This document shows, one piece after another, positions 6,613 through 23,460 of a DNA stretch of 26,164 nt. Positions within the stretch are counted from its first letter, which is position 1. Each line of letters begins with the position of its first letter. The notes beneath the pieces are model-generated. The model was not told the origin of the DNA, did no database searches, and saw only the letters and a list, made by a program, of their open reading frames with translations. Made by a program: the position numbers and the translations under genes. Source of the stretch: a virus; the IMG/VR virus record IMGVR_UViG_3300046516_000331, positions 1 through 26,164 of that record. One strand, written 5' to 3'.

Positions 6613-7398
6613 CTAGCTCCACGTCACGGCAAGCGACAGCAGCGCATCTGTCGGGCTGCCGGTCGCTGATGTGATCACTGCGGTGATGCGCTGGCCTGCT
6701 GTGAAGGTGTTCGCCGCCGTTGCATTGGTGGTCGCAGGTGTTGCACTGCTCACTGCCACTGCGCTCAGTCCTGTCACGTTGGTGCCGTTGATCTGGATCG
6801 CGACGCTGAACGAGCCGTTGCCGGTGAAGTAGGTCAGCGCATTGACGGTGCCGTTATATGGTGCGTCGTAGGCCAGCCAGACGGTGTCGTTGCTGACAAT
6901 GGCGCCGGTCACCCACTGGGCTTGCAGGCGTGCCGTGTTGCGGGAAGTGGCTGGCGTGCCTGGAACGCCCTGCGGGCCTTGCGGCCCTGTGGCACCCGTT
7001 GGGCCGGTGGCACCTGTCGCGCCGGTCGCTCCAGCGGCTCCGGCGGCGCCAGTAGACCCGGTCGGTCCTGCCGGTCCAGTAGGCCCTGCCGGTCCTGTGG
7101 CCCCCGTAGGCCCCGTTGGTCCTGGTGGCCCCCCTGATGGCCCAACCGGCCCTTGAGGCCCTGGAGGGCCCTGCAAGGTGTCTGGCAAGCCATCTGAGAT
7201 GTAACTGAGCAGCGCGCTCGCAGCGAACCGCCCGGACCCTGCCTTCTCGCCAACCACCGAGGAGCTATCGTTCACAGCGCCGAGGTCTGGCATGTCCGCG
7301 ATACGAACACCGCCGCTGAACGGCACATCAGTGCTGGCCGGCGTCCTGACCTCTATCGTCATCCCGGCAGGCAACACAACCGGCGTGATCACCGTCAT
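6613..7398 (-). CDS. Collagen-like tail fibre with shared attachment module
   Basis: The 261-residue protein has a short N-terminal strand, the shared attachment module at residues 29-60 and a linker to about residue 74. Residues 75-152 are an almost unbroken Gly-X-Y stretch rich in GPP, GPT, GAT and GPA triplets. A beta-rich C-terminal domain of about 105 residues follows ([15 protein letters not shown] and [20 protein letters not shown]). This is the layout of a trimeric collagen-like fibre: docking peptide, triple-helical shaft, tip. It overlaps the upstream gene by ATGA. Pro in the Y position of some triplets makes it a conceivable substrate for the oxygenase at 1623-2174. Confidence 0.8.
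7219..7314 (-). repeat. Attachment module, copy 2 (coding repeat)
   Basis: This segment encodes residues 29-60 of the collagen-like fibre and is the partner of the tailspike module at 5514-5609. In the spike the module lies at the very N-terminus; here a 28-residue extension precedes it. Confidence 0.75.
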
Positions 7399-7937
7399 GG
7401 AATGCGGCCCTCGAGCACAATCACGCTGTCATCATCGGTCAGCACGGGCGGTGTCGGATCGGTCAGCAGGATGACCGGCGCCCCGATGGCACGCGGAATG
7501 CTGTAGGCCAGATGCAGATGCCCCTCGGCCAGCAGGTCGGTGCCACCGCCGCCGTCATAGTCGAGCTGCAGGGCGTAGGCGCAGCGGCGCGGCCAGCCTG
7601 CCATGGTGGCGGTGGGGAAGCTGATGTCGAACGCCCCGAGTGCATCGGAGATGACACCGGTCCCCACCCACAGCACGGTCTGCGGGCATTGCGGCCAGTG
7701 CCAGTAGGCACCGTAGTCCCACGACGAGCGGCCGTGCTGATCCGGCCAGACGAGCATTTGCAGCGCCGGACCGCCGATGCCGCCGGTCAGGTCGATGCCC
7801 TGGGCGCAGACGCTGTCGCTGTCGACCACGGTGACGCGCAGGAATAGGCTGTCGGCGCGTCCGAGCACCAGGTCGCGGCGCGGGATGTGGACCGGCGAGG
7901 TGCGCATGTAGGGCACTGTCATGGCGAATGAGGGCAT
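7395..7937 (-). CDS. Phage tail-associated beta-sandwich protein, unassigned
   Basis: The 180-residue protein is predicted to be mostly beta-strand. It contains [20 protein letters not shown], then ALQMLVWPD, and [20 protein letters not shown] followed by [14 protein letters not shown]. The order of a polar-strand opening, an LTGG-like turn and a closing strand ending in a charged HLHLA resembles the Ig-like N-terminal domains of phage baseplate and fibre proteins (BppU type), but I cannot name a family with confidence. The start is clear: AGGAG lies six bases upstream and arises from the TAG of a 14-codon remnant. It overlaps the collagen-like fibre by ATGA, so it is probably an adaptor or small fibre component. 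Confidence 0.6.
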
Positions 7938-11518: not shown

Positions 11519-12628
11519 TTATGCGTCAGCTACAGCCGCACTCCAAACTGTGACCACGCCGTTGTCCACTGGTTTTGTTGTATCAACAGTGGGATCAACA
11601 CCAAAGCGGAGCTTCTGCACGCCGCGGATCTCCTCCACGCCAACGCCGTTGAAGAACCCATAGTCGCGTCGGTTCTCGATCACTTTGGTGCGCTGAGCCC
11701 AGGCAATGCCGATCGCCTGCGCGCCGCAGAGATACGACGCAGCGACATCGGTGGTGCCCCCAGAGCCAGCGCCCGCCAGCACCGGCAGTTCAGGGATTTC
11801 GCGGATGATGACGCCGTCGTAGAGGATGTCACCAGCGGTGAACAACGGATTGTCGGAGCCGCGGTTCCAGGCATATTGCAGGGCGTTGATGATGACCGGA
11901 TCGAGCATCAGGTCGCGAAACGCCATGCTAGGCACGAACATCACGTACCACTCCTCATCCCGGCTGACCCTGATCGGCCGGATCTTGGGCGTGGCGGTGC
12001 GCGCGATCCGCTTGGCCAGCGTGACCTGGGCGGCGGTCAGCTTGTCGGCGGTGTTGTCGACGTTGGTCAGCGAGGTGGCATAGACGCCAGTGTTGTTGGA
12101 TTTGCTGGCACCAAACAGCACGCGATCGGAGTTGTTCACCAGCCAGGTGTTGCGCTGTGCTGCGGTGGCCGCCGCGTAGGTGATCTGCACATTGCCGTCT
12201 GCCGTGATGGCACCGAGCGATGTGATGATGTCGGCCCTGAGCTTGTTGGCGGCCCAGTTCTTGAGCACCTGGCGACCGGCCTGGAGCAGATCGATGATGC
12301 TCTTCTGCTCGTCCCATTCACTGACCGCGACCGCGTGGCGGATGACGCCGACGGTGACGTTCAGCGAGCGGGCGTTCAGTATCTCCTCGTTGCCCTCGAG
12401 CACCGTGTTGCCCGTTACGCCGGCGCCGACCAGATTGCGCACGGTGGGGAAGACGACGGTGTCGCCTCGTTTGCGCGTAAGATCCGTCTGTAATTGGATC
12501 ATCGCGTCCATTGTGGTGCCGAAATAAACGCTGAATTGATTTTCGCGCAAGTACTCGACCCAGAAATCACTTTGCCAAATTATTGGCGTTAGTCCTGGTC
12601 TACTCGGCGTGACATTCATGTCGGCCAT
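11519..12628 (-). CDS. Major capsid protein, N4-gp56 family
   Basis: The 369 residues carry the family pattern: WSEYL-like WVEYLRENQFSVYFG, RKRGDTVVFPTVRNLVGAGV followed by LEGNEEIL, SEWDEQKSIIDLL, VSRDEEWYVMFVPSMAFRDL, then GDILYDGVIIREIPEL and a closing RDYGFFNGVGVEEIRGVQKL with RFG. These capsid proteins form HK97-fold shells in N4-like phages and in many uncultured podoviruses. It follows the scaffold gene, with an HNH gene inserted between them on the other strand. The ATG at 12628 has AGGAG nine bases upstream. A second ATG three codons on (MNV) is less well placed. Confidence 0.9.
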   Translation of the reverse strand: MADMNVTPSRPGLTPIIWQSDFWVEYLRENQFSVYFGTTMDAMIQLQTDLTRKRGDTVVFPTVRNLVGAGVTGNTVLEGNEEILNARSLNVTVGVIRHAVAVSEWDEQKSIIDLLQAGRQVLKNWAANKLRADIITSLGAITADGNVQITYAAATAAQRNTWLVNNSDRVLFGASKSNNTGVYATSLTNVDNTADKLTAAQVTLAKRIARTATPKIRPIRVSRDEEWYVMFVPSMAFRDLMLDPVIINALQYAWNRGSDNPLFTAGDILYDGVIIREIPELPVLAGAGSGGTTDVAASYLCGAQAIGIAWAQRTKVIENRRDYGFFNGVGVEEIRGVQKLRFGVDPTVDTTKPVDNGVVTVWSAAVADA

Positions 12629-12898: not shown

Positions 12899-13462
12899 AT
12901 GGCTAAATCTTACGTTACAGACCTAACGGCAGAGCAGCTACGCGCGTTGCTCCACTACGATCCCGATACCGGCTTCTTCCGGTGGCACGAAGGGATCGAC
13001 CATTGGCGAGCAGGCTTGCCGGCAGGGACGCTCTATAAGCAGAGGCCGAACGGCCCCAAGCGTGTTGCGATCGGCATCGGCACCACGTCAGAAGAGAAAT
13101 ACAAGGTCATCGGCGTTCGCAAGCGTGTCTATAAGGCGCACAGGTTGGCGTGGCTCTATGTCTACGGCGAATGGCCAGATGGCCAGATCGACCACATCAA
13201 CGGCGACCCCACCGACAACCGTATCGTCAATCTGCGCTTAGCTACTCTAGCTGAGAACTCCAGAAATCGCGGCCTGCGCGCAGACAACACGTCGGGCATC
13301 AAAGGCGTTTCTTGGTCCAAGAAGAGCAATAGATGGCTAGCACACTTGGGACACAACGGAAGACTGCTCCACCTTGGCCTGTTCGACACTATCGAGGAAG
13401 CCAGAGCGGTTCGTGAAGAAGCCGCACGGCGCCTACAAGGCCAATTCTACCGAGCCACGTAA
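12899..13462 (+). CDS. HNH homing endonuclease with C-terminal AP2 domain
   Basis: The 187-residue protein starts with a short segment (LTAEQLRALLHYDPDTGFF) typical of this group. An HNH nuclease core follows at about 80-125 (HRLAWLYVYGEWPDGQIDHI, with D98-H99 in the first part and N111 and N120 further on). An AP2 DNA-binding domain lies at about 132-184 (SGIKGVSW, WLAHLGHNGR, GLFDTIEEARAVREEA). Freestanding enzymes of this type cut related phages that lack the gene and spread by repair. It is placed on the strand opposite to the structural operon, exactly between scaffold and capsid genes. Ribosome binding is probably GAGG eleven bases before ATG, which is rather distant. Confidence 0.9.
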   Translation: MAKSYVTDLTAEQLRALLHYDPDTGFFRWHEGIDHWRAGLPAGTLYKQRPNGPKRVAIGIGTTSEEKYKVIGVRKRVYKAHRLAWLYVYGEWPDGQIDHINGDPTDNRIVNLRLATLAENSRNRGLRADNTSGIKGVSWSKKSNRWLAHLGHNGRLLHLGLFDTIEEARAVREEAARRLQGQFYRAT

Positions 13463-13475
13463 TGCCCCTGCACCA

Positions 13476-14348
13476 CTAGTAGCGCACCTGCCCGCTGCCG
13501 TTCGTGTTGCGTCTGTTCTGTACCGGCGCGAGCACGTCCTCGAGGCTCGGTTCGCCGGACCACGCCCCCGCCGTGCGCCCTGCGACGCTGCGGGCGGTGC
13601 CAAGCGATGGCTGCATGCCGGCGGCGGGTGATGGGACGGGCGCCGGCTTGGCTTCCTGCTCCCACTGTGCGCGGCCCTCGGCCAGTATCTTCTCGCGGTA
13701 TGCGGCCGGATCGTCCCCGACATCGCGCACCAGGCGCAGGCGATCGACCTCGCGGGTGAGCCAGGCATAGGGGTGCGGCTGGCTGTAGAGCTTGCCGAAC
13801 AGCGTCGGGTCGGCGTTCGCCAGGTTGCGGAACTCCTGCACGTACTCGGACAATTTCTCTTGCCCGATCTTATCCGCCAGCATCATCTCGGAGTTGTTCA
13901 ACCGCTCGTTGAGCAGCGCGGCCTGTTGCTGCTGGACGAGATGCTGGGCGAAGCCGCGGGGGTCGGCGGCAGGGTCTGGCGGCGGCTGTGGTGGTGCTTG
14001 TTGCTGCGGCGGCGGAGCTGTGGCGCGGCGTTGGGCGTCCTCGAACTGACGCTGCAGCTCCTTGTGCTTGGTTTCGGCCTCGACCGCACGCGCTTTCCAA
14101 TCCTGCCGCTTCCGCCGCTCGTCCTCGTAGGCGCGGCGCGGGATGACCGGCTCGCCCTCGAGCGCTTCCGGTGGGTCGGTGTCCTCCTCGGGCTCCGGCT
14201 TGGCTGCGGCGGGCTTGGCGGCCGGTTCGGCCTTTGCCTCGGGCTTCGGCGCCGGCGCCTCTGGCGCTGCCTGCGGGGCCTCTGGCGGGGCTTCGGTGAC
14301 GGTCGCGGTCTCGCCCTTGAGGAACGACTCAAGTTGCTCGTTGGCCAT
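13476..14348 (-). CDS. Capsid scaffolding protein
   Basis: The 290 residues have the usual make-up of a podovirus scaffold. Residues 15-65 are low complexity with Ala, Pro, Glu and Lys. A charged coiled coil lies at about 70-112 (RRAYEDERRKRQDWKARAVE and on). A Pro/Gln stretch and a helical region to about 220 follow (MMLADKIGQEKLSEYVQEFR), and the C-terminus is basic (PVQNRRNTN, VRY), as is typical for shell-binding ends. The position two genes before the capsid gene on the same strand supports the call. AGGA lies seven bases before ATG. No sequence family is identified beyond this architecture. Confidence 0.75.
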   Translation of the reverse strand: MANEQLESFLKGETATVTEAPPEAPQAAPEAPAPKPEAKAEPAAKPAAAKPEPEEDTDPPEALEGEPVIPRRAYEDERRKRQDWKARAVEAETKHKELQRQFEDAQRRATAPPPQQQAPPQPPPDPAADPRGFAQHLVQQQQAALLNERLNNSEMMLADKIGQEKLSEYVQEFRNLANADPTLFGKLYSQPHPYAWLTREVDRLRLVRDVGDDPAAYREKILAEGRAQWEQEAKPAPVPSPAAGMQPSLGTARSVAGRTAGAWSGEPSLEDVLAPVQNRRNTNGSGQVRY

Positions 14349-14378: not shown

Positions 14379-14663
14379 TTAGTCGTGCTGCAACTCACTC
14401 GGCAGCGGCGGCAGCGTGCGGGCGCCGGGTCGCAGCGGTTGTGGTGGTCGTTGGCGTGGTTCCGGTGGTGGCACCTCGCCGGGCTGCTGCCGCATCTTCG
14501 GCAGGTGCAGCGCCTGCGTCTGCTTGGTGACGCTGTATTTGCTGCGCCCCAGCAGGCGCCCGATCAGCACGGGCCCCATGCCGTTCTCCCACATGCGGCG
14601 CAGCGTGGTGCGCTCCTCGTCCGTCCAGGGGACGCTGACCACGTGCTTCATGCTGGCTGGCAT
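14379..14663 (-). CDS. GcrA-like helix-turn-helix protein
   Basis: Residues 10-57 (VPWTDEERTTLRRMWENGMG, then LIGRLLGRSKYSVTKQTQAL) follow the pattern of the GcrA N-terminal DNA-binding domain: WTDE, a helix, a short turn, then a recognition helix. GcrA is a cell-cycle transcription factor of Alphaproteobacteria, and phages often carry short relatives. The C-terminal 35 residues are Pro/Arg-rich, and the C-terminal RNA-polymerase-binding part of true GcrA is missing. It may act on phage late promoters or host genes; the target is unknown. GGAG lies seven bases before the chosen ATG at 14663; a later ATG (14651) is less well placed. Confidence 0.6.
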   Translation of the reverse strand: MPASMKHVVSVPWTDEERTTLRRMWENGMGPVLIGRLLGRSKYSVTKQTQALHLPKMRQQPGEVPPPEPRQRPPQPLRPGARTLPPLPSELQHD

Positions 14664-15398: not shown

Positions 15399-15605
15399 AT
15401 GGCCCACGAATGGCTGGCGATTACGGCCCCGAACGGGGAGCAGGGATATCAGTGCCAGCGGTGCAGGCTCACCGCGATCCATCTCCCGGTCCGCTCCTCC
15501 TGCCCCCCGAAGCTGATACCGACGCTGGCAGAATTGCTCGATAAGGTACACCGCGAGCAGGAGGCGGCTATGGCCTCAGCAGACACTTCTCCACGATCCG
15601 GTTGA
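15399..15605 (+). CDS. Small Cys-containing protein, function unknown
   Basis: The 68-residue product begins with a short WLAITAPNGEQGYQCQRCRL segment whose CxxC pair and a later Cys before Pro-Pro suggest a half zinc ribbon. A short helix with TLAELLDKVHREQEAAM follows. AGGAGG lies four bases before the ATG, so translation should be strong. The last 38 bases overlap the convergent membrane-protein gene at 15568-15768. The C-terminal residues inside that overlap are probably little constrained. Confidence 0.6.
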   Translation: MAHEWLAITAPNGEQGYQCQRCRLTAIHLPVRSSCPPKLIPTLAELLDKVHREQEAAMASADTSPRSG

Positions 15606-15768
15606 GCAGCTCGGTGCGCGCCGAGACGTTGTGGTCGAACACCCACCAGAACACGCCAAGGAACACGATGTTGAGCACGATCAGCATCAGGAACGCTGGC
15701 GGCAACACCCGGATCAGACGCTCCGAGATCCCCGCCAGCAGCCCGTTGGCGCGCTCCTGCTCGGTCAC
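15568..15768 (-). CDS. Small single-span membrane protein
   Basis: The 66 residues have an amphipathic N-terminal helix, one hydrophobic span at about 24-44 (AFLMLIVLNIVFLGVFWWVF) and a charged C-terminal helix. The length and single span are compatible with a pinholin-like or spanin-like lysis protein, or with a membrane partner of the two upstream proteins. There is no lipobox or endolysin nearby to favour lysis. The GTG start overlaps the upstream TGA as GTGA, so it is coupled to the 68-residue gene and through it to the PEP-CTERM gene. Confidence 0.65.
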   Translation of the reverse strand: MTEQERANGLLAGISERLIRVLPPAFLMLIVLNIVFLGVFWWVFDHNVSARTELLNRIVEKCLLRP

Positions 15769-15971
15769 CGTTCTTTAGGCATCTCATAGGCCCGATACAC
15801 CGCAGCCGGATCAGCGATCTCCTGCTTGAACGTCGCGGCATATTCGTAAAGCAGCTCGATCGCTTTGATCGCGGTCTCATTCACATAGAAATGCGAACGC
15901 TCCACCGTCGCCTGCTTGCGCAGGCTCTCGAGGTGATCAATCACGGTGAAGATCCTAGCAACGTTATTCAC
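15765..15971 (-). CDS. Small helical protein coupled to the PEP-CTERM gene
   Basis: The 68-residue protein is predicted to be all-helical (IFTVIDHLESLRKQATVERS and AIKAIELLYEYAATFKQEIA). It has no signal or membrane segment, and I do not recognise it. The GTG start overlaps the PEP-CTERM stop (GTGA) and its own stop overlaps the next start (GTGA), so three proteins are made from one coupled unit. That argues for a joint role or at least joint dosage. Confidence 0.6.
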   Translation of the reverse strand: MNNVARIFTVIDHLESLRKQATVERSHFYVNETAIKAIELLYEYAATFKQEIADPAAVYRAYEMPKER

Positions 15972-16609
15972 GCGCGCCGAGGCCGCACCAGCCCCAATCC
16001 CAGCAGCCCGACGCCAAGCAGCGCCAGGCTCGCCGGCTCCGGTACCGCGGCAGGCGATGCTGAGAACGTCCCCGACACGGACGCGGTGAACGAGCCAATA
16101 CTGGTGCCAACGATCTGGAATGCCGGCGTGATGCCAGCGAACGCCAACCCCACCGCGCTCGGATTGAACAGGTCGGTGATCACGTCGGATGTCAGTGTCA
16201 GGCTGTCAGGCGGGGCACCAACGGCGAGCGCGCCACCGGCCCCACTGCCGAACGTCACGTCGGCGAATGTGCCCGACAGGTAGTTGGTGCCGCCGCCGCC
16301 CGCCGCGCTGGTAATGCTGAACGTGCCGCTGAACTTCTGCGCGGATCCACCAAGGATCGGTTGGGCGGCACCCACCGAGGCCGCACTCAGGTCGAAGAAG
16401 GCCGCGGTCGGGCTGCCATTCTCGATCTGTGTGATGCTGATCGACGCATCGGTCGCGCTCAGCGTGGTGGCGGTCTGCGCGCCGTTCTCCGTCGCCGTGA
16501 TCGGCGTGCCGGCAGTCTGGCCGAACGAGAGAACGACAACGGCATTGGCCGGCGCGTGGAAGAACATGGCGGCCGCGATGATGCTGACGCCGAGCAGTGC
16601 GTGTTTCAT
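15968..16609 (-). CDS. PEP-CTERM sorting-signal protein encoded by the phage
   Basis: The 213 residues begin with a clear signal peptide (MKHALLGVSIIAAAMFFHAP, then ANA as the likely cleavage site at 23). A Ser/Thr/Gly/Ala-rich beta-type body follows. The C-terminus is a textbook PEP-CTERM tail: VPEPASLALLGVGLLGLGL (from 189), then RPRRA. In bacteria this tail is cut by exosortase, and the proteins go to the surface or into exopolysaccharide. Presence in a phage implies a host with exosortase. The body matches no enzyme I know. The ATG at 16609 is set by the signal peptide; the ribosome binding site (AGGGG) is only moderate. Readings further upstream are arginine-rich and have no signal. Confidence 0.85.
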   Translation of the reverse strand: MKHALLGVSIIAAAMFFHAPANAVVVLSFGQTAGTPITATENGAQTATTLSATDASISITQIENGSPTAAFFDLSAASVGAAQPILGGSAQKFSGTFSITSAAGGGGTNYLSGTFADVTFGSGAGGALAVGAPPDSLTLTSDVITDLFNPSAVGLAFAGITPAFQIVGTSIGSFTASVSGTFSASPAAVPEPASLALLGVGLLGLGLVRPRRA

Positions 16610-16637: not shown

Positions 16638-17129
16638 CTACTTGTGCGGCGTTGGCGTGGGCTGTGGAGCCGGAGGCTCAGCGTTGATCTCCAGACTTGG
16701 ATCGATGACGACATATTTCCAACCGAAGCCCGGTAGATACACGAGGCACCAGTATGTGCCCGACGCGATTGGGTGCGACGGGTGCGGGTCCATGCCGGTA
16801 GGAGGCAACGTCTGATCAGGGCGCGGCGGCGAGCCACCGGGAGCTATCGGATGGGTGGCTGTAGGTGGTGCCCCGCCAGGCGCAATCGGATGCGCTGGAT
16901 GGCCAGGGCTGGGCCAGATCGTGCCAGGCGGCGGCTTGCTGCCTCCAGGTGGGATCGGCACTATGGGATGCGCAGGCACCGGAGGCGGCCATATGCCAGG
17001 CGGTGGCGGCGGGATTGGCAACGAGTTGTCGATGCCTGGCTGATCGCCCGGGAGCCCTTGGTCCGGATATTCGCCGCTCATCCCCTCGACGTTCAAATAG
17101 CCGCCCATGACGTGAACTCTAGCCATCAT
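16638..17129 (-). CDS. Proline-rich repeat protein, function unknown
   Basis: Residues 8-22 have a short GGYLNVEGMSGEYPDQGLPG segment. The middle is built of degenerate units such as HPIAPGG, PPGIWPPP and PGTIWPSPG. The C-terminus reads GTYWCLVYLPGFGWKYVVID, a compact strand pair with Trp and Cys. I know proteins of this pattern (PDQGLPG, IWPPP, HPIVP with a YW-G-W tail) from many phages of Alphaproteobacteria, without an assigned role. The long Pro arm with a folded end would suit a flexible virion decoration; that is inference. GGAG lies four or seven bases before the two adjacent ATGs. Confidence 0.65.
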   Translation of the reverse strand: MMARVHVMGGYLNVEGMSGEYPDQGLPGDQPGIDNSLPIPPPPPGIWPPPVPAHPIVPIPPGGSKPPPGTIWPSPGHPAHPIAPGGAPPTATHPIAPGGSPPRPDQTLPPTGMDPHPSHPIASGTYWCLVYLPGFGWKYVVIDPSLEINAEPPAPQPTPTPHK

Positions 17130-17150
17130 AATTCTCCATGTGTTGATGTC

Positions 17151-17190
17151 GTTGCGTCGTTACGTCGTTGCGTCGTTGCGTCGTTGCGTC
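17151..17190. repeat. Tandem repeat of an 8-base unit
   Basis: Five units of GTTGCGTC (one reads GTTACGTC) stand head to tail, with degenerate units on both sides (GTTGATGTC before, GTTACATG after). The last unit runs into the stop codon of the beta-helix gene. It lies between that stop and the ribosome binding site of the proline-rich gene. Confidence 0.9.
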
Positions 17191-17191
17191 G

Positions 17192-18274
17192 TTACATGTG
17201 CGGCGCCAGAAAGTCCCGCAGCGCAGCAGCGAGCTGATGGTGGTGCCCCATGTGCCCATGCACGGGCGGCGGCACAGGCGGCGGCTCTGGCGGGGGCGGC
17301 AGCGGCGGTGGCTCGGGTGGTGGCAATGGCGGCGGTGGCGCCGGGGGTGGCTCAGAGACCGGCGGTGGGGCGGGTGGCGGATCACCACCCGGATTGCTGA
17401 TGAAGCTGAGCGAGCTGGTATCGAGAGTGGGCCGGCTGGCCAGCAGCACAGTGTCGCCGGCCGCGGGAAGCCCCCAGACGCTGTTGCCGCTCAGCGTCGG
17501 CTGGGTCGCAGCGTCAAGCAGGAACCTACCGGACGGATCGTCGTTGATGATGGTGTTGCCGGCGATCGCAAAGCTGGTGCCGGGGTTGGATGCGCCCTCT
17601 TCTCCATAGGCCACGATAAACGGGTTCTGGGTGTTGGGCCCCTGCTCGATCGTGTTGCCGCTGATCGTGGCGTTGCCGCCGTTCGGTAGGTCAATCGAGT
17701 AGCTGGCGCTGCCGCCGTTGTCGAAGATGCGGTTGCCGGTGATGGTGTTGCTGACAGCCCGGGATTTGATCTCATGACCTACGATCGCGTCGTGGACGTA
17801 GGAGTTCGTGAGGGTGAAGGATGCAATAGCACCGACGTAGATGTTATGAGTCGATCCAGATCCATCGCCATTGTTGGCAAACTCTGAATGGTCGATGGCA
17901 ATTGAACCGTTGCTATCAGCGGCGCCGAGCAATCCTTCTTGGTTGTCGTGGAAGTAGTCGTTCGACAGCGAGAGGCTGCCGCCCTCGTAGCGGATCGCAG
18001 CGCCATTTCCGTCCGGTACAGCCACCCCGCTAATGTCGAACCCATTGATCGCGACATTGGCGCCACTCTCCGTGATCATCGCCTTGCCGTTGGGCGGGCT
18101 GGTGGTCTCCCGCATCAGCACCTCGCCGCCCACCGCCTGCAGCGTGATCGAGGTGCGAATGGTGAGGAACTGGTCGACATACGTCCCGGCCTGCACGTCG
18201 ATCGTGTCACCGGATGCCGCGGCGTTGATCGCGTCCTGAATGCTCTGCCCGTTGCTGACCGTCAGGATTGCCAT
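17192..18274 (-). CDS. Right-handed beta-helix protein with Pro/His-rich C-terminus
   Basis: Residues 1-40 (AILTVSNGQSIQDAINAAAS then GDTIDVQAGTY) are the standard opening of parallel beta-helix proteins of the NosD/pectate-lyase-like superfamily. Residues 40-290 show coil repeats (ITGNRIFDNGG, ISGNTIEQG, IAGNTIINDD, LSGNSVWG). Residues 298-340 are polyproline with Glu, Ser and Leu. The end has HGHMGHHHQLAAALRDFLAP. No signal peptide or phage docking module is seen. Very similar layouts occur in chromosomes of Acetobacteraceae and Methylobacteria as far as I know, so capture from a host is plausible. It could be a virion polysaccharide-binding protein. GAGG lies four bases before ATG. Confidence 0.75.
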   Translation of the reverse strand: MAILTVSNGQSIQDAINAAASGDTIDVQAGTYVDQFLTIRTSITLQAVGGEVLMRETTSPPNGKAMITESGANVAINGFDISGVAVPDGNGAAIRYEGGSLSLSNDYFHDNQEGLLGAADSNGSIAIDHSEFANNGDGSGSTHNIYVGAIASFTLTNSYVHDAIVGHEIKSRAVSNTITGNRIFDNGGSASYSIDLPNGGNATISGNTIEQGPNTQNPFIVAYGEEGASNPGTSFAIAGNTIINDDPSGRFLLDAATQPTLSGNSVWGLPAAGDTVLLASRPTLDTSSLSFISNPGGDPPPAPPPVSEPPPAPPPPLPPPEPPPLPPPPEPPPVPPPVHGHMGHHHQLAAALRDFLAPHM

Positions 18275-18579: not shown

Positions 18580-18647
18580 GTGACAGCGGTGATTAGCAGC
18601 ACGACCAGCGCCAGCACCATGATCCCGAGCAGCGCCCCGTGGCTCAC
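18576..18647 (-). CDS. 23-residue membrane peptide
   Basis: GTG opens a frame encoding SHGALLGIMVLALVVLLITA, then Val-Thr and stop, which is almost entirely one hydrophobic span. It overlaps the upstream stop (GTGA) and the downstream start (ATGA), so it sits as a coupled middle gene. Peptides this short are easily missed; membrane-active or regulatory roles are possible. Real expression is not shown by the sequence alone. Confidence 0.5.
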   Translation of the reverse strand: MSHGALLGIMVLALVVLLITAVT

Positions 18648-18823
18648 CAGTAAGGCCCGCGCCCGATGCCGAACAGAAGGAACAGGACGATTATCAGGAG
18701 GACAACGGCACCTATTCCGCCAAACCCGCCATAACCATAATACCCACGGTTATAGCCCACGTACCCGCCTCCCAGTCCTCCGAATAACAGAATGACCAGG
18801 ATTATTATGACTAGCAAAGACAT
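18644..18823 (-). CDS. Small two-span membrane protein, DUF3309-like
   Basis: The 59 residues have a hydrophobic span at 2-14 (SLLVIIILVILLF), a Gly/Tyr-rich loop at 15-38 (GYNRGYYGYGG) and a second span at 39-53, ending GRGPYW. The pattern resembles small DUF3309-type proteins found in proteobacterial genomes and phages, whose function is unknown. The start has only a weak AGGG seven bases upstream. Its stop overlaps the next GTG. It is the first gene after the HNH insertion downstream of the portal. Confidence 0.6.
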   Translation of the reverse strand: MSLLVIIILVILLFGGLGGGYVGYNRGYYGYGGFGGIGAVVLLIIVLFLLFGIGRGPYW

Positions 18824-18847: not shown

Positions 18848-18884
18848 CCGCCAGTGCTGCAAACACCGGCGGCGCCTCTGACCA
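18848..18884 (+). promoter_or_regulatory. Structured leader of the second HNH gene
   Basis: CCGCC (18848-18852) pairs with GGCGG (18868-18872) and holds an inner GTG/CAC pair around a CTGCAAA loop. It is followed almost at once by GCCTCTGACCA (18874-18884), the same 11 bases found before the first HNH gene. The start codon is 23 bases further on, compared with 21 at the first gene. Confidence 0.5.
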
Positions 18885-18907
18885 TCACGCTATCTGGAGT
18901 AAGCGAC

Positions 18908-19432
18908 ATGGCTGATAAGAACCTACGCAATTCGTTGACCGCTGAGCAACTTCGCGCTGCTCTGACCTATGACCCGGAAACGGGTGTTTTTACGTGGCGT
19001 CGCCGGGCCGACATGACGAACTCATGGAACACGCGCTGGGCAGGCAAGGTGGCCGGCTATCCTAGCGGTGGATACACGGTGATCATGATCTATAACGTTA
19101 ACCAGCGCGCCAATCGTCTTGCGTGGCTGTGGACGACCGGCGAATGGCCTCCTGGCGGCGAAGTGGATCACATCGACACCGACAGAAGCAACAATGCCTG
19201 GACGAACCTCCGAGACTCAACCCGACAGCAGAATAGCTGCAACGGCCCTATGAGATCGACGAACACCAGCGGATTTAAGGGCGTCACCAGATGCGGAAAC
19301 AGATGGACGGCCTATATCACAGCGAACTATCGGCGTACCCACATCGGATGTTTCGGTACCCCGGAAGAGGCTCACGCAGCCTATGTCGAGGCTGCTAAAC
19401 GGCTTCACGGGGAGTTTGCGCGTGTCGACTAG
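18908..19432 (+). CDS. HNH homing endonuclease with C-terminal AP2 domain
   Basis: The 174-residue protein is a clear relative of the one at 12899-13462. It shares the opening LTAEQLRAALTYDPETGVF, the HNH core at about 69-112 (ANRLAWLWTTGEWPPGGEVD with D87-H88, then N96, N100) and an AP2 domain at about 120-172 (SGFKGVTR, NRWTAYITANYRR, CFGTPEEAHAAYVEAA). GGAG lies eight bases before the ATG at 18908. Its TAG and the TAG of the convergent portal gene overlap in one CTAG (19429-19432). The insertion thus abuts the portal gene without loss of reading frame, as expected for a homing gene that settled beside a conserved target. Confidence 0.9.
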   Translation: MADKNLRNSLTAEQLRAALTYDPETGVFTWRRRADMTNSWNTRWAGKVAGYPSGGYTVIMIYNVNQRANRLAWLWTTGEWPPGGEVDHIDTDRSNNAWTNLRDSTRQQNSCNGPMRSTNTSGFKGVTRCGNRWTAYITANYRRTHIGCFGTPEEAHAAYVEAAKRLHGEFARVD

Positions 19433-21639
19433 GGCGCTCCACCGGGCGGGGCGGGCTCCGGGATCGGAGTACGCATCAACCTGTTGGTGGTCGTTGCCAC
19501 GTTGTGAGCCTGGTGGACTGTATGGATCGTCTGCGCGGCAGTATGCAGCGTGCTCTGCGCTGTGGCCGGGATCTTCGCGGCTGTCAGTAATGTCTCCGCG
19601 TGGGTTTTCTCGGTATCGGCTCGCTTCTGCGACAGGTCAGCTAAATGGTGCGCCAACTGAAGATCGGGAGCCATCTGCTCCGGGTTCTCGGCCTGCGGCG
19701 GATTGACCTGGGTGGCATTATCGTCCGGGAGACCCATGAAAGTTCTGTGGGCATCGTGAATGGTCGAGGCCGCGCTCACGTTGCGTTCTTTGGCGAGAGC
19801 CATGTTTGCAGCAGCTTTAGATTGCAGATCCGCTATCTGGGCCTGCCCATGCTGGGCTGCAATCTGCCCTGCCTGTTGTTGGGCTTGCTGTTGCTGTTGT
19901 TGATGTTCCTTCATCCGTTGCAATATCATATCTTTATCCCGAAGCCCTGAGGCCGCGATCAAGACATCGCCAGGGATCAATCCAGGCTGCACCGAAGCCA
20001 GTTGGACTAGCGACTGAAATTCTTCCGCCTGTAGCGATGGAATATCAATTCCCTCTTCAATGGTGATATCTACATCCAAATCCGAAATGTCATGCTCAAT
20101 CCCCACGACCTGCTGCAATCTCGGATCACCTGGTTGTAGTTGCATTTGTTGCATAACCATAGCCCGATGTTGCTCCGGCATATCGGCCAAGCGATCCATC
20201 AGTCTGACGGGTCGGTTAATCCCAACCCATCTTGTCTCCCCCAGGTCATCCGTGACCCTGACCCATTTCCCCCCAGTCCAGTATTCCCGAGCTGCTTGCC
20301 ACGCCGTCTCATAAACCCGCCTGCTCCAGAACCGCAGCGCGTCGGCCAGCGGCTCGTTCTGCGCTGCGCCGCCGGCTTGCATCGCCAGCACGGCCCTGCC
20401 GCTCAGCTCGCGCGGATCAGTGCCTGACATGGCTGCATTCGGCCCGCTGAGCTGCATCTCGGCGGTTGCGTGCTGCAGCAGTTGGAACTGACCGGCGGCA
20501 AGGTCGGCGGTCTGCTCGATCTCGAACTTCAGCCCCGGCATCACCTCGATGTAGCCATCGGGCTTGGCAACCTCACGCCGCGCCTTGTCCACGTCCGGCA
20601 CCGCGCCCTGCTCTGCGATGACCTGGCGCACGGACAACAGATGCAGCGCCTTGCTACGCCGCTTGTTGATCTCGTCCTGCAGGCTGATGAGCCCACGTAC
20701 CATCCCATACCGCTGGTTCTCGCGATTGATGTAGCTGGATTGCAGCAGCAGCCCGCTGCACGACTTGCCCTTGCGGTCCTTGAACTTGGAGCGCTGTGGT
20801 GCAGCCAGCAGCCCGCTCTTGGTGAAGGTCGCGCGCCACCACGTCCCACGCTCGGACCAGTCGCACTGGACGAGGCGAATGCGCGTGCGGTTGTTGTCGG
20901 TCCAGAACGCGGTCTCGGGCCGGTCGTTGTACTGGTAGTCCGTGCTGCTGAAGCTGCTCTCGATTACGTCCTGCACATCCTCGCCGGGATACATCTCCTC
21001 GAGTGCATCGCGGTCGGTCCAGATGACCATGCCCTTGTAGCGCGCATCGCTGAAGTCATACGAGCGGCTGTGCGGATCGTACCAGATGCGATCCCACGGG
21101 ATGGTGGTGATGGTGATGTTGCACGAGCCCTGCCCGTCGTCCTCGAGGCCCAGGTCAGCGCCACCAGCGCCCTCGATGAGCATGTTGGAGAACACTTCGC
21201 TGCGCACGATGGAGAAGTCGTTGTCGTCCGCGATATAGCGCAGTGCCTGCGTGGCGGCGTCGGCGCGATCCTCCTCGGCCGGCGTTCTCGCAAATGCCTT
21301 CGGATCCGTGCGCGCCTTGCGCTCCATGCCGCACAGCAGTTGCACTTTATCTGCGACCTTGTTGATGACGATCGCTGGCTGGCCGCGTTCCTTCAGCAGC
21401 TTCAGCTCGTCGCGCGTCCACTGGGAGCCGTCGAAATACTCGCGGTCGCGCTGTGCGAGGTCGATCTCGTCTTGGCGCGCCAGCTCGCTCTCCTCGAACC
21501 AGCGGATCAGGCGGGCGTGGAGGTCGTCCAGATCCCTCGGGTAAGCGTCCGGATCGCCAGGCGTCAGGTCACGGATCGCCGGCGGCGTGTCGGGGCCGCG
21601 GTCGCCGTGTATGTGGAGATGGATGGCGGTATCACTCAT
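19429..21639 (-). CDS. Portal protein, P22 type
   Basis: The 736 residues are close to P22 gp1 (725). Family features include REYFDGSQWTRDELKLLKER followed by GQPAIVINKV, IEGAGGADLGLEDD, TIPWDRIWYDPHSRSYDFSD, the SGRAVLAMQ segment and a long helical C-terminal barrel region with a Gln run near residue 605. It forms the twelve-fold ring through which TerL pumps DNA and on which gp4-type connectors sit. No Shine-Dalgarno precedes the ATG; the bases before it are CCTCCCTCACATCCC. Translation may be leaderless or rely on a nearby internal promoter. The 3' part (about 19640-20300) is visibly poorer in GC than the rest. A GTG 26 codons upstream is rejected because it lies in the divergent gene and encodes a basic non-family extension. 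Confidence 0.9.
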   Translation of the reverse strand: MSDTAIHLHIHGDRGPDTPPAIRDLTPGDPDAYPRDLDDLHARLIRWFEESELARQDEIDLAQRDREYFDGSQWTRDELKLLKERGQPAIVINKVADKVQLLCGMERKARTDPKAFARTPAEEDRADAATQALRYIADDNDFSIVRSEVFSNMLIEGAGGADLGLEDDGQGSCNITITTIPWDRIWYDPHSRSYDFSDARYKGMVIWTDRDALEEMYPGEDVQDVIESSFSSTDYQYNDRPETAFWTDNNRTRIRLVQCDWSERGTWWRATFTKSGLLAAPQRSKFKDRKGKSCSGLLLQSSYINRENQRYGMVRGLISLQDEINKRRSKALHLLSVRQVIAEQGAVPDVDKARREVAKPDGYIEVMPGLKFEIEQTADLAAGQFQLLQHATAEMQLSGPNAAMSGTDPRELSGRAVLAMQAGGAAQNEPLADALRFWSRRVYETAWQAAREYWTGGKWVRVTDDLGETRWVGINRPVRLMDRLADMPEQHRAMVMQQMQLQPGDPRLQQVVGIEHDISDLDVDITIEEGIDIPSLQAEEFQSLVQLASVQPGLIPGDVLIAASGLRDKDMILQRMKEHQQQQQQAQQQAGQIAAQHGQAQIADLQSKAAANMALAKERNVSAASTIHDAHRTFMGLPDDNATQVNPPQAENPEQMAPDLQLAHHLADLSQKRADTEKTHAETLLTAAKIPATAQSTLHTAAQTIHTVHQAHNVATTTNRLMRTPIPEPAPPGGAP

Positions 21640-21659
21640 GGGATGTGAGGGAGGTTCCG

Positions 21660-22127
21660 ATGTCGGATGATCCGGAGCGGGAATACATCGAGGCGAAGGC
21701 TGCTTATGACGCGGCACTGGTCAGGCTGGCTGCGGCGAAGAAGGCGCGTCCGAAGCAGACACTGAAATCCGATCTACGGCGGGCTGAGAACCAGCGGATC
21801 GGTGAGGCTGTGTGGCAGGCGTATGTCGAGGGCGCGCGGGACTATCATCTGCTGGCAGATCGCTTCGGCCGCTCCCGGTCCTGGGTTAATAGCCACATCC
21901 TGTCGGTTCTGTATCAACGCCGCTTCGGCCCTGAAACGCTGCGTGAATACGAGGAGCGCAAGTGGTGGGAAGATGAACCCTTGCGTCAGAAGGCTGAGCG
22001 TGAGCGGCGAGAGGAGCTCGCGCGCCGCGCCTCTCTCTCAGTCGATCCCAAGCACAGCGAGGCGTGGCACCAAGCGTATCAGATGTATGAAAACCAGCGA
22101 AAGGCCGAAGAGCAGTCGGACGGGTGA
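21660..22127 (+). CDS. Helix-turn-helix protein on the opposite strand, function unknown
   Basis: The 155-residue protein has a coiled N-terminus (EREYIEAKAAYDAALVRLAA), a helix-turn-helix at about 60-82 (RDYHLLADRFGRSRSWVNSH) and a long charged helix with REYEERKWWEDEPLRQKAER. The helix-turn-helix resembles resolvase- or small-terminase-type DNA recognition, but no family is certain. A GGGAGG five bases before the ATG makes a strong start. The start lies only 20 bases from the divergent portal start, so any promoter must lie inside the portal gene. It could regulate late genes or be the small terminase placed in an odd position. Confidence 0.7.
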   Translation: MSDDPEREYIEAKAAYDAALVRLAAAKKARPKQTLKSDLRRAENQRIGEAVWQAYVEGARDYHLLADRFGRSRSWVNSHILSVLYQRRFGPETLREYEERKWWEDEPLRQKAERERREELARRASLSVDPKHSEAWHQAYQMYENQRKAEEQSDG

Positions 22128-22132
22128 TGCCG

Positions 22133-22270
22133 TCAGTTCGCCTTACGTGCGGCCTTGAGGCGTTGGAACTCGGCCCACTGGCGCAGGAACTCGGCCCAGG
22201 TGATGCGCGGGTTGATGCGGCGCGCCACGTCCCACCACTCCAGCCGGTCGAAATCGTCGAGGCGGGTCAC
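22133..22270 (-). CDS. 45-residue protein coupled to the ART gene
   Basis: GTG overlaps the TGA of the ART gene (GTGA) and opens a 45-codon frame with FDRLEWWDVARRINPRITWA and a following EFLRQWAEFQRLK helix. I recognise this Trp-rich pattern from short proteins near portal or terminase genes of other phages; no role is known. Tight coupling to a predicted toxin-like enzyme makes an accessory or immunity role worth considering, as does simple virion function. It ends five bases from the convergent helix-turn-helix gene. Confidence 0.6.
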   Translation of the reverse strand: MTRLDDFDRLEWWDVARRINPRITWAEFLRQWAEFQRLKAARKAN

Positions 22271-23460
22271 TGGCTCGGCTGCTGTTGCTGGGTTCCGGCG
22301 GCTGCGGCGCCCCCGCCTGCGATCAGGCCGGCGAGGCCATACTTGCGGAGTATCTCGATCGTGGCGGGGTCGAACACGACGTAGTTGTGCGTGCCTTGGC
22401 CAGCGCCGCGGCTGCCTTGGTCGAGGTAGCGAATGCCGGGAATGCCAGCGGCTTGCATCTGCTCAGCGGGCGCTGCTGGTGCGCCTGGGTTATTCTTAGC
22501 TAGGTAGCTATGCAAGTCAGAACCGGTCCAATTCGACGTGTTCCCTAGATCGTCTCGCATCGTCTTGCTGACATATTGCGCGGTAGACATATCCGGCCAA
22601 CCATCAGGGCGTCCGATGACGTTGCCGTTTAATGTTGTCCCCCAGCGTCCATTTGGCAGGCGCGTCACGCCGTCAGGCACTTGGGGAACGAGAGATTGCA
22701 CCGCCGGATGCTGCTCGCTGAGCGGCTTGTCCCAGTCGAGGAAATGCTCCGGATCAGCGCCGATGTTCACCTGATACATGTGGCCACCAGCAGGTTTTAA
22801 GTCGCCGCCCGATTTGAGATACTGAATTGCCTGATTGATCTTATCCGCTTCGCCTGGCGGATAATTATTAGGGTATTGGTCTATCTGGCGTTGCACGAAC
22901 TCAAGATGGGAAATCCCTCCTTCATGCCCGCCCTGCATATTTGCCCAGAACTTCGCCACCCCTTCAGGCGTATCCGTTTCGGATCGACTCGCTAAGACAT
23001 CGCGATACTGCCGCGCCACACCCTCGCCCTCCGCGAAGTAAAGCCCTCTGCCGTATGCCTGCGCGCCCTCGCCTGTGCCGATGAAGCGGTCGTCAAAGCG
23101 GTTAAAGTCTGCTGGTGATCCGTGATACGCCACGATGCCCGGGGGCGGCACGTCACCCGGCGCGGTGGTGCCCATCATGACGCCCTGTGCGGTCTGTCCG
23201 ACCCCCTGGATGAGGCCCTTCTGCGTTGGCAGGCCGGTGTCTGGATCGAGCAGGCCCTGGCGCGTGCTCTCGGCGCGCTGGTCCTGCAGCCACTGCCACG
23301 CCTGCCGGCCCGCTGCTGCCACGCCTGCGCCCTGGCTCGTGGGGCTGGGTGGCGCGGCATAGTTGAGCATCGGCGGCCCGAGGCCGTTGGGTTGGCCCAC
23401 GGGGCTGTTGGGCTGCCACAGCCACGGCATGTTCGGTGGTGCTAGGCTGTTGTCTGGCAT
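22267..23460 (-). CDS. Predicted ADP-ribosyltransferase (ART-PolyVal type)
   Basis: The 397-residue protein has a Pro/Gln-rich N-terminal arm (1-105) and an ART domain from 109. VAYHGSPADFNRFDD supplies the conserved His. TGEGAQAYGRGLYFAEGEGV is the typical second block. The closing AAGIPGIRYLDQGSRGAGQG followed by THNYVVFDPATIEILRKYG is the hallmark end of the ART domain found in large polyvalent proteins of phages and plasmids. These enzymes are expected to use NAD+ to modify a host target; the target is unknown. Residues 376-389 are Gly/Ala/Ile-rich and could be membrane-active. No Shine-Dalgarno precedes the ATG. The location between terminase and portal genes suggests that it may be packaged with the virion. 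Confidence 0.8.
   Translation of the reverse strand: MPDNSLAPPNMPWLWQPNSPVGQPNGLGPPMLNYAAPPSPTSQGAGVAAAGRQAWQWLQDQRAESTRQGLLDPDTGLPTQKGLIQGVGQTAQGVMMGTTAPGDVPPPGIVAYHGSPADFNRFDDRFIGTGEGAQAYGRGLYFAEGEGVARQYRDVLASRSETDTPEGVAKFWANMQGGHEGGISHLEFVQRQIDQYPNNYPPGEADKINQAIQYLKSGGDLKPAGGHMYQVNIGADPEHFLDWDKPLSEQHPAVQSLVPQVPDGVTRLPNGRWGTTLNGNVIGRPDGWPDMSTAQYVSKTMRDDLGNTSNWTGSDLHSYLAKNNPGAPAAPAEQMQAAGIPGIRYLDQGSRGAGQGTHNYVVFDPATIEILRKYGLAGLIAGGGAAAAGTQQQQPSQ

Follow-up and report, generated by a model that had tools for sequence, protein, structure and literature searches.

A virus-borne PEP-CTERM protein family and its membrane neighbour TM66 in an accessory cassette of tailed phages

Introduction

Exosortase substrates are known as surface and matrix proteins of bacteria. 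According to the published model of the PEP-CTERM system, Sec exports them and the tail retains them until exosortase cleaves them, after which they reach the outer envelope or matrix (PMC1569441, PMC12188702). The bacterial PEP-CTERM protein PepA keeps EPS bound to cells (PMC9850573), and deletion of exosortase changes the exoproteome and adhesion (PMC12188702). One paper mentions viral horizontal transfer of TIGR03118 proteins, in which a domain is present that putatively interacts with exosortase (PMC11003980). A literature search for phage-encoded PEP-CTERM proteins found no paper.

The DNA analysed here, termed the window, is the whole 26,164-nucleotide stretch of IMG/VR virus record IMGVR_UViG_3300046516_000331. 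It codes on the minus strand for a 213-residue protein (15968..16609, read from 16609 to 15968) that shares with the PEP-CTERM/exosortase (EpsH) system (PMC1569441) a signal peptide, a PEP motif, a hydrophobic helix and a basic C-terminus, as well as a mature domain of no recognisable family. Two features set it apart from the bacterial system: the phage carriers tested have no exosortase gene of their own, and a single family is conserved across phages whereas each bacterium has many paralogues.

The PEP-CTERM protein

The signal peptide MKHALLGVSIIAAAMFFHAPANA (residues ~1-23), read as such from its charged-hydrophobic-AxA sequence, is followed by the mature domain (~24-186) and by the C-terminal tail AVPEPASLALLGVGLLGLGLVRPRRA. 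The tail, residues 188-212, matches Pfam PF07589 (E=6.4e-6, 26.5 bits, cut-off 20.7) and NCBIfam TIGR02595 (21.2 bits, cut-off 16), both above threshold. The signal peptide and PEP-CTERM tail that an earlier note had recognised are confirmed once the gene is placed on the minus strand. The pattern of PEP, hydrophobic stretch and basic end is found in 1 of the 505 ORFs of the window against 2 in 506,000 shuffled ORFs. The best NCBIfam match of the whole protein is the flocculation PEP-CTERM protein PepA (NF033554, E=5.5e-11; PMC9850573), but its 42.8 bits lie under the cut-off of 80 and the match vanishes when the tail is removed.

The mature domain has no family match. A first structural model built with close homologues only was poor (pLDDT 52.5), while the model from an alignment of 43 family members was good (pLDDT 81.8), with a helix on either side of a beta-rich domain. 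The protein is thus predicted to carry a compact beta-rich domain between the signal peptide and the PEP motif with its hydrophobic helix and basic tail. Foldseek searches with the 43-member model returned nothing at E<=0.001, and VIA-align gave middling Z scores, the highest 8.7, to various small beta-barrels with no confident fold match. The mature domain, having neither a family nor a confident fold match, therefore gives no pointer to a particular surface function.

Position in the phage genome

The PEP-CTERM gene forms a unit with two smaller genes, also on the minus strand, coding a 68-residue helical protein (15765..15971) and TM66, a 66-residue single-span membrane protein (15568..15768). 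The unit lies between the portal gene (19429-21717) and the scaffold (13476-14348) and major capsid (11519-12628) genes, all on the same strand. The portal-to-capsid stretch is broken up by small plus-strand genes and by HNH genes, so that the unit has been inserted among the head genes and does not belong to a clean structural operon. Both GTGA overlaps described there are real (15968-15971 between the PEP-CTERM and 68-residue genes, 15765-15768 between the latter and TM66). Such four-base overlaps are ordinary, being found in 9 of 41 adjacent same-strand pairs of G001, a 41.9-kb phage that is a close copy of the window and whose PEP-CTERM protein is 100% identical, and they are not special evidence of coupling. 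A search for a clear promoter or terminator found none.

Immediately upstream of the PEP-CTERM gene a Pro-rich 163-residue protein is encoded (16638..17129, minus), whose phmmer matches in most cassette loci are merely suggestive because of low complexity. It is preceded by the gene of a right-handed beta-helix protein with a Pro-rich C-terminus (17192..18274, minus; PF13229, E=5.9e-9), relatives of which occur in some cassettes. The downstream end of the cassette is marked by a GcrA-like helix-turn-helix protein of 94 residues (14379..14663, minus; PF07750, E=2.4e-4, below cut-off), whose relatives served as cassette anchor in the census given below. Two mutually similar HNH endonuclease genes (12899-13462 and 18854-19432) flank the cassette region on the opposite, plus strand and could aid its movement; the first was tested and carries HNH_3 plus AP2.

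The location between portal and scaffold, with beta-helix and collagen-like proteins among the neighbours, is what a virion or tail-associated structural protein could have, but such a role is highly improbable for a protein with a signal peptide and a sorting tail. The phages that carry the family moreover have head modules of at least three kinds: G001 combines a phrog_156 portal with a phrog_334 capsid (assigned on the window's copies), the head of G004 is of phrog_1216/phrog_1328 type, G008 codes a head-protease/capsid-type protein, and G002 has a phrog_156 portal, though no homologue of the G001 capsid was found among its called genes. Family members are also found at other positions, some outside head genes. 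The Pseudanabaena phages Pam5, Pan3 and Pam1 (capsid 37-42% identical to that of the window) and Burkholderiales prophages (50-53%) have the same P22-like order of portal, scaffold and capsid genes, but unlike in the window the PEP/TM66 cassette was not detected in the head regions examined. Pam5, CBW1004C-Prop1 and most examined bacterial prophage relatives, in which the portal gene is near the scaffold and capsid genes, lack it, which also counts against a structural role.

A virus-restricted family under purifying selection

The PEP-CTERM protein family, first scanned as 36 loci, grew in a broader scan to 86 confirmed loci, of which 80 were kept (38-100% identity). In that one scan all 86 were in viral contigs. 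Every member with a readable 3' end has a PEP-CTERM-like tail, which is degenerate in two of them (L347 and L366). Although column identity averages only 47% over the 43 diverse members aligned, none departs from E191 or P192, and P190 is kept in at least 90%; PEP is intact in 41 of 43, the basic end is present in all 43 and a simple rule detects a hydrophobic N-terminal core in 41. The tail might serve as a membrane anchor only, exosortase playing no part and the product being an inner-membrane or periplasmic protein that acts with TM66, for example to keep DNA from entering or to tune lysis. The linkage of the gene to that of a membrane protein is in line with this reading, as is the capacity of PEP-CTERM tails to hold unprocessed proteins in the inner membrane (PMC12188702). 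It is nevertheless judged unlikely, because invariance of Glu-Pro and near-invariance of Pro-Glu-Pro at this level of divergence is more than plain membrane anchoring would require.

The gene is under purifying selection, with median dN/dS of 0.16 for the mature domain, 0.17 for the tail and 0.40 for the signal peptide. The 95 loci with tblastn hits, a number that includes overlapping loci of the same contigs, showed no in-frame stop and no split or interrupted gene. The reading of a phage-borne, selected PEP-CTERM protein is thereby supported, and absence from related phages or decay, which would have spoken against it, is the opposite of what was found. Different mature types have exchanged signal peptides; L053, for instance, joins a leader of the window type to the mature domain of the other subfamily. 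Several phages (L363, L373, L387, L388, L390, L391 and L393) code for a second, tandem PEP-CTERM protein. Within a phage, the similarity of the two tails exceeds expectation (p=0.011, n=7, a small sample in which relatedness confounds), which would fit tails matched to a single host enzyme.

Constraint on the tail equals that on the mature domain, the tail is retained while signal peptides are exchanged, and some phages have two tagged proteins. These traits would suit a decoy that saturates or inhibits the host exosortase, leaving host PEP-CTERM proteins or EPS undisplayed and so easing lysis, spread or evasion of matrix defences. The equal conservation of the mature domain, superfluous for a pure decoy, makes this explanation doubtful, somewhat more so than simple anchoring.

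Cellular genomes yielded no close homologue. Tail-only or partial matches came from 385 alphaproteobacterial, 300 Burkholderiales and 398 Pseudomonadota genomes searched, an absence that rests mainly on profile searches (~1,080 genomes), the genome scan for the PEP-CTERM gene having used narrow patterns. A distant cellular PEP-CTERM protein (L394) aligns at 40 bits over residues 73-213. Searches of cultured phages gave no match to the PEP-CTERM protein, three of its divergent members, TM66 or the 76-residue slot protein described below, and a search of plasmids for the PEP-CTERM protein returned nothing.

TM66 and the variable slot of the cassette

In the phage group of the window, TM66 is a regular neighbour of the PEP-CTERM gene. 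Of 25 non-redundant loci anchored on the capsid gene, 11 have both genes, 3 have TM66 alone, none has the PEP-CTERM gene alone and 11 have neither. TM66 is thus found in 11/11 phages with the PEP-CTERM gene versus 3/14 without it (Fisher p=1.2e-4, merely indicative because the loci share ancestry). Two of the contigs counted as having neither (L070 and L111) bear the PEP-CTERM gene elsewhere, with TM66 just upstream of it (L350 and L351); the same flipped arrangement is found in the distant members L353 and L362. Membership of TM66 homologues of the L010/L074 type is less certain because they are distant (~30% identity), and many distant PEP-CTERM members have no detectable TM66 neighbour.

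Among the 33 cassettes anchored on the GcrA-like protein, 31 code for TM66, 25 for the PEP-CTERM protein, 24 for both of these and 1 for the 68-residue protein. Of the two small proteins put forward earlier as partners of the PEP-CTERM protein, the membrane protein is therefore upheld by co-occurrence in both locus sets, while the helical one, like its expected joint occurrence, is not: it exists only in near-identical copies of the window's phage, and elsewhere its slot between the PEP-CTERM and TM66 genes holds unrelated or Acb2/Tad1-hairpin proteins. The slot protein L048 (86 residues, 7201-7461) matches Acb2_Tad1_hairpin PF24729 (E=1e-12, 48.4 bits, cut-off 27). L053 (7774-8004; E=2.7e-5) and L009 (E=2.6e-5), which represent the commoner type of 76-78 residues, reach 24.7 bits, just under the cut-off. 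In the slot census the 76-80-residue hairpin type is nearby in 12 cassettes and the 86-residue type in 3; other contents are a 62-residue protein, a Cys-rich 56-residue protein or nothing. The PEP-CTERM and TM66 genes are thus commonly paired in the cassette, and in the window's phage group the middle slot is often of the Acb2/Tad1-hairpin kind. By family resemblance, these slot proteins would have a role of anti-CBASS/anti-Thoeris, cyclic-nucleotide-sponge type (review PMC12043709), the likeness lying in sequence alone. The window's own 68-residue protein differs in having no match to PF24729, nor any family match in Pfam (up to E=1), PHROGs, NCBIfam or PADLOC.

Given its variable slot contents, the best interpretation of the cassette is an accessory module for host takeover and anti-defence, of which the helical protein is one interchangeable occupant. 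It is also a place to seek further anti-defence genes, among TM66 and the slot proteins without assignment. The PEP-CTERM gene, missing from 8 of the 33 cassettes, is itself accessory. This, with the hint of cellular ancestry given by L394, could fit the recent capture of a host gene as neutral or selfish cargo; such an origin has very little probability, being largely refuted by the dN/dS values and breadth of the family, with no decay, deep virus-restricted diversity and no close cellular homologue. The gene is not a stray acquisition.

Exosortase and host

No exosortase gene was found in the phages tested, which would therefore rely on that of the host. Of 13 genomes with MCP-related prophages, only 4 have exosortase. 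Scanning genome contigs for the capsid found relatives at 37-53% identity only, in mixed hosts, and a tetranucleotide classifier assigned sister phages to different classes. Neither the window nor five relatives contain tRNA genes, and the phage tail is equally like alphaproteobacterial and Burkholderiales PEP-CTERM tails. A comparison of 20 kb of window DNA with 385 alphaproteobacterial and 399 Burkholderiales genomes gave no convincing spacer; it matched terminase and collagen-like or low-complexity sequence. A short tandem repeat of ~TTGCGTCG lies at 17147-17193, upstream of the Pro-rich gene, and simple repeats similar to it explain two 39-base matches in one Burkholderiales genome.

Proposed role during infection

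Most likely the product is a viral envelope protein sorted by exosortase and encoded within a cassette for host takeover and anti-defence. Of the new results, the strongest are that the viral family is broad and constrained and that TM66 is linked to it. During infection Sec would export the protein and its tail would keep it in the inner membrane, where TM66 may assist; the host exosortase would recognise the PEP motif and cut the protein, which would then move to the outer envelope or matrix. Dependence on exosortase is presumed. Less certainly, the surface protein might alter adsorption or the extracellular matrix in favour of the infecting phage, its simplest forms being superinfection exclusion, offered here as conjecture, or progeny kept from re-adsorbing to infected cells. 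That the phage gene is viral cargo of the host PEP-CTERM/exosortase pathway, with export, sorting and surface change as proposed, is judged marginally more likely than not. The chances are about even for the wider picture of virus-restricted exosortase substrates with which tailed phages of different heads decorate the infected cell, packaged together with a membrane partner and with exchangeable anti-defence genes of the cyclic-nucleotide-sponge kind. The observation made earlier on the window is thus confirmed and its interpretation partly supported. If true, phages would have a further, new means of remodelling the envelope of the infected cell, and the family would provide a natural panel of tail variants for the study of exosortase specificity.

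Other genes of the window

Three further minus-strand genes were noted. The one at 18644-18823 codes for a small Gly/Tyr-rich membrane protein, a relative of which (L039, 6169-6339) matches DUF3309 above cut-off. Between the terminase and portal genes, 22267-23460 gives a partial ADP-ribosyltransferase (ART-PolyVal) match, just under cut-off (E=1e-5). The gene at 1623-2177, near tail genes with collagen-like repeats, codes for an aspartyl/asparaginyl beta-hydroxylase domain (PF05118, E=5e-13) and its product is a possible modifier of the collagen-like tail proteins.
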